Shown piece by piece: positions 32,099 to 35,850 of a DNA stretch of 64,000 nt (position 1 is the first letter of the stretch; every line of letters starts with the position of its first letter). The stretch is from an uncultured Verrucomicrobia subdivision 3 bacterium. Its GTDB lineage: Bacteria > Verrucomicrobiota > Verrucomicrobiia > Limisphaerales > UBA11358. The position numbers were made by a program, and so were the translations under genes. The stretch covers positions 1-64,000 of the forward strand of contig CAIRJF010000013.1 in assembly GCA_903878805.1 (NCBI GenBank). The letters are read 5' to 3'. The notes beneath the pieces are model-generated. The model was not told the origin of the DNA. It saw only the letters and a list, made by a program, of their open reading frames with translations, and ran no database searches.

Positions 32099-32427
32099 TG
32101 CGTGTTGGCGCAAAAACTATCAAAACCCATGACACGAGGCAATACCTCGTGTTGTATTGCGGGGTTATTGAGGACGATGAAGCCGTGCCGTCACAAAAGC
32201 CAAAAGCTTGTGCCCACCGAACAAAACTCGGCGGGAACATTGTGGCTTTGCGGGGAAAAAGAAAACTGACGCAAGAACAGCTTGCCGAAAAAAACGGTGT
32301 CAGTGTGCGTTATGTGCAGAGCTTGGAAGCTGGGGAATATTTTCCAAGCCTGCCGAAGCTGGTGAAATTAAAATCAGCTTTGCGTTGTAGCTGGGCTGAA
32401 ATCTTCGACGGCTGCGAAAAAGTTTAA
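31999..32427 (+). CDS. XRE-family HTH regulator (true start uncertain, HTH about 32225-32427)
   Basis: [52 protein letters not shown]; 5' part of the ORF overlaps fkbM antisense, so a later start is likely. Confidence 0.7.
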
Positions 32428-34964
32428 GCCATCGCGCGGGCGATGGAATTCCACCAGGCGTCGTGCAATTCGGTGAGCGGGGCGGAAAATTCGCCGCTGG
32501 CGGTTTTCACCATCAGCTTGTCGCCGCCGACTTTGCCGATCTGAACTGCGGGCACGCCCATGAGCTTGGCGCGTTCGACGACTTTCACGGCATCCAGCGC
32601 TTTGCAACTGATGACGACACGCGATTGCGTTTCGCCGAAGAGCAACGCGTCCAATCGCACCGTAGCGGCGTCTCGGGAGAGCGCCGCATTCTGTTCTTCG
32701 GACTGGTCAGCGGCACTCTGCCGAGATGCCGCTACGCCGGAGAGGTCAACCGTCGCACCGATGAGGCGCGGCGTTTCGCGGGCGATGAGCTGGCTGATGC
32801 AGCTTTCCGCCAGCGCGACGGCGAGGCCGCCTTCACTACAATCGTGCGCGCTCTTCACGAGGCCGGATTGGATCAAGCCGAGGAGCGTGGTGTGCAGCGT
32901 CTTCGCGACTTCAAGGTCGCAACGCGGCGGCGAACCGGCCTTCTTGCCGTGGACGACCTGCAGATACGCGCTGCCGCCGAGCCCTTGCAACGGCGTGGCT
33001 TCCACCGCGTCGCCGAGCAGGATGATGGCGTCGCCTTCGTCCTTGAACCACTGCGTGGTGACGTGCTCCAGCTTCTCGATGAGGCCGACCACGGAAATCG
33101 TGGGCGTCGGATCAATCGGGCCGGCGGGGCTTTGATTATAGAGCGAGCAATTGCCGCCGGTGACGGGCGCGTTGAAGGCTTTGCAACCTTCCGCCAGACC
33201 GCGCACGGATTCCGAAATCTGCCAGAACAACTCGGGCTTGGCCGGGCTGGGCATGTTGAGATTGTCCGTCGCGCCGAGCGGCAAAGCACCGGAGCAGGCG
33301 AGATTGCGGCACGCTTCGGCGACGGCGGCTTTCGCGCCTTCGTAGGGATCGAGATAAACGTAACCGCCGTTGCAATCCACGGTCATGGCGATCAACTTTT
33401 CGGAAACGGTCGGGTCGCCGACTTTCGCAGCGAGTTCCGCGCTCATCACGGGCAATGAATCCGTCTTGATGCGAATGACTGCGGCGTCGCTGCCGGGCAA
33501 CACGACTGAGCCGTCGCGCACTTGATGATCGTATTGGCGATAGACCCAGTTCTTCGACGCGATGCTCGGCCAAGCGAGCAGCTTCTTCAAATCTTCGGCG
33601 GGCGTCGTAGTGTCGGCAATTCCATCCAAACGAAACGCACGCACGTCTTTCAGATACGCAGGCTCAACGGCTTCGCGCTGATACACCGGCGACTCGTCGG
33701 CGATCTTGCGCGCAGGAATGTCCACGACGAGTTTGCCACCGTGGCGCACCTTCATGTGGCCGGTGTCGGTGATGATGCCGATCTCGGACCACGGCAAATC
33801 CCACTTGTCGAAAATGCGTTTCACTTCCTCTTCGCGGCCCTTGTGGACGACGATGAGCATGCGCTCCTGCGATTCCGAAAGCATGATCTCGTAGCTGCTC
33901 ATATTCGGCGCGCGTTGCGGAACTTTGTCGAGTTCGATCTCGATGCCCGTGCCGGCGCGCGCGGCCATTTCGCAAGTGGAACAGGTCAAACCCGCCGCAC
34001 CCATGTCCTGCATGCCCGCGACGCAACCGGTGGCGAGCAGTTCCAGGCACGCTTCGCACACGAGTTTTTCCATGAACGGATCGCCGACCTGCACCGCGCC
34101 GCGCTGTTGCTCGGCGGATTCCTCGGTCAAATCTTGCGACGCGAACGCCGCGCCCGCGAGACCGTCGCGACCCGTCGCCGGGCCGACGTAAAACACGGGA
34201 TTGCCCACGCCCTTGGCCGCGCCGCGCGTGATCTGTTCGTGCCTCAGCACGCCGAGGCAGAACGCGTTCACGAGCGGATTGCCTTGATACGTCTTGTCGA
34301 AATACACCTCGCCCGCGACGGTCGGTATGCCGAAGCAATTCCCGTAATGCGCGATGCCGCTGACGACGCCGGCGAACAATCTCCGATTGTTGGCAATTTC
34401 AGCTTTTGTGCTTTGGGGATCACGCGCGCCCTCGCGCGTCGCGGACGACGCCCCGTCGTTCGCTTTTGCGGTTGACGAGGCGTCAACCGCTGCGCCCAAG
34501 GCGGGCGCGCTCCCCATTTCCGTTTTCCGTTTTCCGCTTTCCGAATTTTCTTCAGTGATCGGCCCGAACCTCAACGAGTTCACCGCGCAAACGGGACGCG
34601 CGCCCATCGTGAAAATGTCGCGCACGATGCCACCGACGCCGGTGGTCGCGCCCTGAAACGGCTCGACCGCGCTCGGATGGTTGTGCGACTCGATCTTGAA
34701 CGCGATGGCGATGCCGTCGCCGATGTCAATGATGCCGGCATTTTCCTCGCCCGCGCCGACGAGGATTTTCGGCGACTTGGTGGGGAAGGTCTTGAGCAGC
34801 GGCTTGGTGTTTTTGTAGCTGCAATGCTCGCTCCACATCACGGAAAAGATGCCGAGCTCGGTGTAGCTCGGCGTGCGGCCGAGGATTTCCACGGCGTGGG
34901 CGTATTCTTCCGGCGTGAGGTTGTGTTTGGCAACCAACTCTGGGGTGATGGCGGGTTCGGTCAT
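32424..34964 (-). CDS. purL: Phosphoribosylformylglycinamidine synthase subunit PurL with two in-frame palindromic insertions
   Basis: [69 protein letters not shown]. Confidence 0.93.
32661..32736. repeat. Palindromic element inside purL
   Basis: GTAGCGGCGTCTCGGGAGAGCGCCG (32662-32686) vs reverse complement of 32711-32735 GTAGCGGCATCTCGGCAGAGTGCCG, 22/25 identical by hand. Confidence 0.85.
34414..34550. repeat. Multi-hairpin palindromic element plus TTTTCCG-type tandem repeat inside purL
   Basis: Hairpins ACGCGCG-ccct-CGCGCGT, GCGgACGAC-gcccc-GTCGTtCGC, GCGGTTGACG-agg-CGTCAACCGC; ends TGGGG...CCCCA; then TTTCCGTTTTCCGTTTTCCGCTTTCCG. Confidence 0.85.
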
Positions 34965-35165
34965 GGAAAAATTTTTAAATTCAATTAAACTTTGCAACTC
35001 GCGCTTCAATTTCCGGGCGAAGCCAATTTCAATCTAATCAAAGTAAAACTTTCAGTCGCGCTTGGAAATCAAAAACCAAAATCAAAGCTGTCGCTGCCGC
35101 GATTGATGCGTCGCCGCAATGATTATTATGGGTCGCCACTAATTACGGATTGCCGCCTTGTTCGG

Positions 35166-35264
35166 TTAATCCCAAAGGGATTAAATCATCCAGCCCAGCG
35201 TTGACGCGCCAGCGGCTACGCTGGGTCAATGTGCCACCAATTTTTATCAACCCTGAAAGGGTTG
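35166..35264. repeat. Left REP-type hairpin set flanking the RAYT
   Basis: TTAATCCC-aaa-GGGATTAA; CCCAGCG...CGCTGGG; CAACCCT-gaa-AGGGTTG. Confidence 0.85.
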
Positions 35265-35296
35265 AATCATCCGCCCGCCTGTCGCATCATCCGGCC

Positions 35297-35752
35297 ATGC
35301 CGCAATCGCTCGCCAAAATCATTGTGCATACCGTTTTCTCCACGAAAGACCGTTGCCCATTTCTGCGCGACAAAGCCCTGCGCGAAGAATTGCACCGCTA
35401 CCTCGGCGGCATTCTTGCAAATCTTGATTGCCAGCCCGTCATCATCGGCGGCGTGGAGGATCACGTTCATATTCTCTCAACGCTGCCACGCACCGGCACG
35501 GCGGCGGAAATGGTCAAAGAGGCCAAACGCGGCTCGTCGCTGTGGCTCAAAACCAAAAGCCCGGAGCTGCAAGATTTCGCGTGGCAAAACGGCTACGGAA
35601 TTTTCTCGATTGGCTATTCGCAGGTCGAGGAGGTGCGAAAATACATTGCCGGACAGGAGGAACACCACCGCACGATTTCATTTCAGGACGAGTTTCGGAA
35701 ATTTTTGGAATGCTACGCCGTGGAATATGACGAGAGATATGTGTGGGATTGA
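35297..35752 (+). mobile_element. REP-associated tyrosine transposase (RAYT / IS200-like TnpA)
   Basis: MPQSLAKIIVHTVFSTKDRCPFL; GGVEDHVHILSTLPRT (HUH); GYGIFSIGYSQVEEVRKYIAGQEEHHRTISFQDE. Confidence 0.93.
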
Positions 35753-35754
35753 TT

Positions 35755-35850
35755 CAACCCTTTCAGGGTTGATGATTTTGTGACGCCCACCCAGGGTAGC
35801 TCGTTCCTCGCAACCCTGGGCTGAACGATTTGAATCCCGTTGGGATTCAA
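35755..35850. repeat. Right REP-type hairpin set, inverted relative to the left set
   Basis: CAACCCT-ttc-AGGGTTG (exact reverse complement of the left copy); CCCAGGGT...ACCCTGGG; TTGAATCCC-gtt-GGGATTCAA. Confidence 0.85.

Follow-up and report, generated by a model that had tools for sequence, protein, structure and literature searches.

How does a purL gene come to carry two different blocks of repeat-rich DNA inside its reading frame, and where does such DNA originate? The gene lies in the window (the whole 64,000-nucleotide stretch of DNA that was analysed) of an uncultured bacterium of Verrucomicrobia subdivision 3, the group to which the congeners compared here also belong. It starts at an ATG at position 34964, within an enclosing open reading frame of 32424–35009 on the minus strand, and is the single PurL match in its genome. 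Between the conserved SLRFGPI and the next conserved block the protein has about 54 additional residues; in congeners the loop at the same place can be as short as LTDPAV, and the alignment to PurL of T. thermophilus (PDB 3VIU) breaks at precisely this point, after SLRFGP and before the next helix segment, which bears out the roughly 50 extra residues reported in the initial annotation. The conservation of this peptide was checked in 29 congener PurL proteins and it is not conserved. An AlphaFold model of PurL (28 close homologues) has a mean pLDDT of 34, too low for use. The features of the locus are the following:

32424–34964, minus strand: purL (phosphoribosylformylglycinamidine synthase) with two in-frame interruptions; open reading frame with AIRS, AIRS_C and FGAR-AT linker domains
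34390–34556, minus strand: whole extra segment, SLRFGPI to NNRRLF; delimited by 29 compared congener PurL and the gap against PDB 3VIU
34390–34413, unstranded: degenerate heptamer repeat on the other side of the element (sense AAAGCTG AAATTGC); common to the element-free congeners L046–L048
34414–34516, unstranded: four-arm TGGGGA...TCCCCA hairpin element (MITE/BIME-like); fold z −5.9, covariation over 18 copies
34414–34419, plus strand: closing stem, left strand TGGGGA; fold
34422–34439, unstranded: arm 1, ACGCGCG-CCCT-CGCGCGT; fold, covariation
34441–34463, unstranded: arm 2, GCGGACGACG-CCC-CGTCGTTCGC; inverted repeat, fold, covariation
34468–34490, unstranded: arm 3, 10-bp perfect stem GCGGTTGACG-AGG-CGTCAACCGC; inverted repeat, fold, covariation
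34491–34509, unstranded: arm 4, TGCGCCC...GGGCGCG; fold, covariation
34511–34516, plus strand: closing stem, right strand TCCCCA; fold
34517–34549, unstranded: heptamer tandem repeat (TTTCCGT/C)n adjoining the element; congener L052 has heptamers without the element

The core of the extra segment consists of two inverted terminal units, each formed by a GGGGAGC tag and two hairpins, and contains no gene. Its inverted repeats comprise the 10-bp perfect pair at 34468–34490, a pair matching at 9/10 positions at 34441–34463, and the ends themselves (34414–34430 / 34500–34516). Three hairpins between TGGGG/CCCCA ends had been described: the 10-bp stem and the ends are real, but the arms number four and are closed by TGGGGA/TCCCCA. 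When folded as single-stranded DNA, 34414–34516 reaches −43.6 kcal/mol against −27.8 ± 2.7 for shuffled sequences, none of which (0/200) was as low (z = −5.9), and the sense-strand RNA likewise adopts an unusually stable fold (z = −6.3). The short tandem repeat said to follow the element is indeed present, as a TTTCCGTTTTCCG heptamer repeat of a type common among congeners.

The element could, in principle, be nothing more than an ordinary PurL loop peculiar to its lineage, or an expansion of low complexity, whose hairpins simply reflect GC-rich coding DNA. In keeping with this explanation, the loop varies among congeners, and many of its variants are repeats that lack transposon ends; against it, the fold lies far below that of the shuffles and the orthologous sites are empty or heptamer-only. 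More decisive is the behaviour of other copies. A genome-wide search for the element, proposed in the initial annotation, found no second copy in its own genome (the best other match has 21 nt); the family is, however, dispersed in congeners, at purL and at other loci. Some of these many loci are intergenic and some are in frame (PurL, AlaS and, by eye, an HrpB-like helicase), and for the five in purL, DNA identity with the copy in the window lies between about 73% and 97%. Across 18 aligned copies from many loci (L235 was left out of the test), 91% of cells are paired, 24 of the 42 base pairs have changed in both partners, and covariation scores 0.417, compared to 0.146 for shuffled alignments and at most 0.101 with slid partners. 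Searches supplied the copy numbers. When the family ends were sought with a strict pattern, 19 copies appeared in G024 and few elsewhere, as the stems vary; the counts are thus lower bounds. The same element DNA is moreover read as unlike peptides, one in PurL and GEHTRPRVSEDAPPRPS in AlaS; because it is translated in different frames, the nucleic-acid structure and not the peptide is conserved. Compensatory changes across copies, together with the dispersal of one DNA element over unrelated loci in different frames, refute the idea of an ordinary loop, which we regard as very improbable. Judged on its sequence, the purL element is best read as a mobile element of the REP/MITE type, and the earlier claim of an in-frame multi-hairpin repeat in the essential gene purL stands.

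The contents of the loop differ widely among the 29 other PurL genes: some have a bare LTDPAV-type loop or a short heptamer-like stretch, L052 has heptamers alone, the TGGGGA element is found in L032, L037 and L040 and also in L063, and the remaining loops contain different hairpin or repeat families. The loop thus tolerates the insertion of several repeat families. At least four further in-frame repeat families occur in the loops of L033–L049, for example TGTAGCGGCGG..., GATGTAGCAGCGGACGTGAGTCCGCTC... and CCCTCTCCCCGGGGGAGAGGG..., as do heptamer repeats of the AAATCGC, AAATCCG and AAAGCGG types. The second in-frame insert of the window's purL, site 1 (approximately 32666–32735), is a GTAG-tagged doublet of the REP type, GTAGCGGC...GCCGCTAC (also written GTAGCGGCATCTCGGCAGAGTGCCGC...GCCGCTAC), a family distinct from that of site 2, and the striking statement that one gene contains two different repeat families, both in frame, is therefore correct. 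Target-site duplications are not expected for Y1 elements; when they were looked for, none was established, the purL insertion sites being filled by several repeats each.

A stand-alone RAYT/IS200-like gene (35297–35752, within the region 35168–35847) adjoins purL and is surrounded by nested inverted repeats, one of them a perfect 24-nt pair at 35246–35269 / 35750–35773. This gene was considered as the source of the purL element and rejected, as its flanking repeats (ATCAACCCTGAAAGGGTTGAATCA) do not match. Near the best stand-alone RAYTs of the genus there are no GGGGAGC elements, apart from one tag-like match.

The probable autonomous relatives reside in alaS. In two congeners, G046 and G006, a RAYT-like Y1/HUH transposase lies between these same ends (GGGGAGC with two hairpins, and the inverse), and the AlaS frame is open across the whole transposon unit, giving 684+ and 1180 amino acids, respectively; loci of this kind, with the same ends around an in-frame Y1_Tnp ORF, are L121 and L122. 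Only the outermost base of the sense-strand end TTGGGGAGCGCGCCCGCCTCGGGCGCAGC differs between the alaS transposon of G046 and the purL copy of G011. Pfam detects AlaS domains on both sides of the interruption and Y1_Tnp inside, and no second match to TIGR00344 passes the family cut-off, which suggests that there is no alaS other than the interrupted one. Within AlaS the genus has three insertion sites, which, depending on the genome, hold nothing, the small element, the transposon or other inserts. A predicted AlaS model (pLDDT 57), too weak for fold comparison, has disordered hairpin-coded linkers. The purL element is thus short and non-coding, with TIRs shared with the transposase-bearing alaS copies, as in a MITE; identical ends and a shared architecture make these copies its likely autonomous relatives, as far as sequence comparison can tell. 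The genome of the window has one copy of the element and no relative of the embedded transposase at E ≤ 1e-15, and so the two are tied together through congeners. These two aspects, the sharing of the PurL loop by different repeat families and the in-frame alaS transposase with the same ends, are what the initial annotation missed.

Related transposases also occur in frame within the ClpB of three genomes and within PriA and DinG. These represent a second Y1 branch (L191, L192 and L193 in ClpB, L194 in PriA and L195 in DinG) with hairpin ends of the GTAGC- or GTGGCACAGACC-type. At AlaS site II, five other loci (L243, L252, L245, L246 and L248) have unrelated inserts of ~80–123 amino acids where others carry the transposase.

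The in-frame habit extends well beyond the genus. Across 320 genomes of the order, 41 transposase matches at E ≤ 1e-15 were retrieved from 33 genomes and 19 genera, and all 41 lie in stop-free frames of 555–1540 amino acids; the hosts examined were AlaS (two sites), ThrS and PriA, sometimes with two copies in one AlaS. From a scan of GTDB representatives the best 80 loci were kept, 60 of them from Verrucomicrobiota (including one labelled Kiritimatiellaeota and one unlabelled). Among these best verrucomicrobial loci, 55/60 are in frame inside a host gene: AlaS (22), RecG (18), MetH (6, at two sites), ThrS (5), PriA (3) and an MmeI-type methylase (1), hosts being identified by BLAST (AlaS, ThrS, PriA), by Pfam for representatives (RecG, MetH, MmeI, CarB) and by shared motifs for the rest. 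The other five comprise one broken copy, in CarB, and four stand-alone ORFs; owing to the latter, the habit is not absolute. Remoter relatives in other phyla are mostly stand-alone. Since most of these genomes are MAGs, one might suspect an artefact of assembly or binning. We give this practically no credence: recurrence refutes it, the exact frame being preserved in dozens of independent assemblies, among them the named isolate Ereboglobus sp. PH5-10 (L351), a 2.7-Mb contig (L357) and a genome that consists of one contig of 4.7 Mb (G091). In the literature searched, from which most subscription journals were absent, no description of in-frame transposases was found. Quentin et al. (PMC6006769) set aside a small number of Y1 proteins of unexpected length, taking them for fusions or annotation errors, a step that could have hidden such cases.

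The embedded proteins have the hallmarks of Y1 enzymes. The HUH and catalytic tyrosine motifs form an invariant core, MPDH(V/A)H and Y(I/V/L)C.NPW, that is intact in nearly all copies, and a profile matches the TnpA-REP structure 4ER8 (E = 1.9e-4); the scores against NCBIfam NF047646 (REP-associated tyrosine transposase), 72.8–78.2 bits, fall just below the cut-off of 80. REP-type hairpins (stem of 7 or more, loop of 3–5) are present in both flanks of 28 of 29 embedded copies, compared with 7 of 2900 shuffled flank pairs. Two features nevertheless set the embedded transposases apart from classical RAYTs. The purL/alaS branch has GGGGAGC in place of the GTAG tag at the hairpin foot (the ClpB transposons have GTAGC), and all 41 order matches reside in long host frames rather than in separate genes with starts and stops of their own. 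No start or stop is conserved, and Shine-Dalgarno-like matches are occasional and chance-like, which suggests that the transposases are translated as part of the host frame.

An insert of this kind might be removed from the RNA or the protein in the manner of an intron, an IStron or an intein, so that the enzyme would never contain it. The arms do join both ends in the RNA (z −6.3), and splicing can make IS elements harmless, as reported for IStrons (PMC4227781). No Rfam intron or other RNA family matches the insert, however, Pfam reveals no intein domain in the 17 proteins scanned, and every host keeps its frame open from one end of the element to the other, something that splicing would render unnecessary; removal therefore seems distinctly unlikely.

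The embedded transposases are under strong purifying selection: dN/dS is 0.03–0.10 for those in AlaS, at or below that of AlaS itself (0.05–0.21), the exact values being rough because dS is high or saturated in many pairs. In the transposase tree they are separate from the stand-alone RAYTs sampled and cluster by insertion site and not by genome, with 10 label changes against 27.7 when shuffled; in six two-copy genomes each copy lies beside same-site copies from other genera. Selection, clustering by site and intact HUH and Tyr motifs would also be anticipated if the Y1 domains had been domesticated and were vertically inherited in the service of AlaS, ThrS, RecG and the other hosts, with the purL element an unrelated REP. 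The divergence of the transposases is nonetheless independent of that of their hosts: at AlaS site II the Spearman correlation between host and transposase identity is 0.000 (153 non-independent pairs), and one pair has a host identity of 0.61 and a transposase identity of 0.88. G046 and G029 have the closest AlaS genes, yet these sisters carry the transposon at different sites. Two copies within one AlaS, a sporadic presence (33/320 genomes), hairpin flanks and small elements with identical ends further argue against domestication, which we consider doubtful, albeit less remote than removal by splicing. Site-grouped spread that does not track host divergence appears, from these comparisons, to be a homing-like pattern that operates without splicing.

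We therefore favour, with a probability of about 0.8, the view that the purL insert is a non-autonomous element of the REP/MITE type whose autonomous relatives are RAYT-like HUH/Y1 transposons living in frame in essential genes. The transposase would be made as a domain of the host enzyme, and the embedded Y1 domain would recognise its own terminal hairpins as folded single-stranded DNA, cut them and move them; cleavage of single-stranded REP hairpins by RAYTs has been observed in vitro (PMC8266576). The purL element and other small derivatives could be moved in trans, the survivors being those insertions that leave the frame open in a protein able to accommodate a loop, so that the purL element would be translated harmlessly. 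Residence in frame in an essential gene may in turn shield the transposase from frameshifts and supply its expression. We infer catalytic activity, homing by strand transfer or recombination, and retention in the mature protein. The bolder proposition, to which we give even odds, is that this is a HUH transposon lineage that persists as an obligately translated in-frame domain of AlaS, ThrS, RecG, MetH or PriA, devoid of gene boundaries, spreading in a homing-like fashion to identical sites of other species and shedding small hairpin derivatives, of which the purL element would be an example.

Several known systems resemble parts of this picture. GTAG REPs, BIMEs and REPINs with their RAYT (TnpA-REP), as well as TIRtrons/TIRYTs, share the paired inverted hairpin units with a terminal tag, the same hairpins around a Y1 HUH transposase, small transposase-free derivatives and some REPs within ORFs; Di Nocera et al. 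2013 (PMC3733652) described both REPs inside ORFs and RAYTs flanked by REPs or other terminal repeats. Here, by contrast, the tag is GGGGAGC, the units are multi-arm, and the transposase has no conserved start or stop and sits in frame at fixed sites of essential genes. The classic in-frame palindromes are those of Rickettsia (RPEs), in which the DNA structure is likewise conserved and the peptide variable. RPEs, however, have CGTC ends, unlike the TGGGGA/TCCCCA of the purL element, and the CGTC repeats have no known transposase, whereas a transposase with the same ends exists here. As in-ORF REPs and RPEs are known, the purL element alone is a new family of an already described type. Inteins and homing endonucleases likewise insert in frame at conserved positions of essential genes, are distributed sporadically and show homing-like spread; in the present case there is no splicing domain, a HUH transposase takes the place of the endonuclease, and the insert lies in loops and appears to be retained in the protein. 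IStrons (IS605/607-type plus a group I intron; PMC4227781) are similarly single-strand-type IS made harmless within genes, but with no intron family detected here, harmlessness would stem from an open frame and not from RNA splicing.

A transposon would normally be expected to wreck its host gene, and an essential gene seems the least likely place for one. If our reading is true, the in-frame HUH lineage is a non-splicing counterpart of the intein: the essential gene appears to shelter the transposase, as frameshifts or stops that are lethal to the latter also kill the host. In-gene palindromic repeats, whose spread has been unclear, are now linked to a concrete enzyme with matching ends, and the loci described here, including one named isolate, supply testable cases. 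In Verrucomicrobiota and Planctomycetota, gene length and domain annotation may conceal mobile DNA in housekeeping enzymes. In-frame copies in Planctomycetota are found in GcvP, RarA and a Ham1/RdgB family protein. Six loci from this phylum or unlabelled (L372, L376, L381, L369, L380 and L379) have in-frame relatives in GcvP, Ham1/RdgB, RarA and methylase-like proteins, and VAQPPSA-coding repeats lie at their ends.
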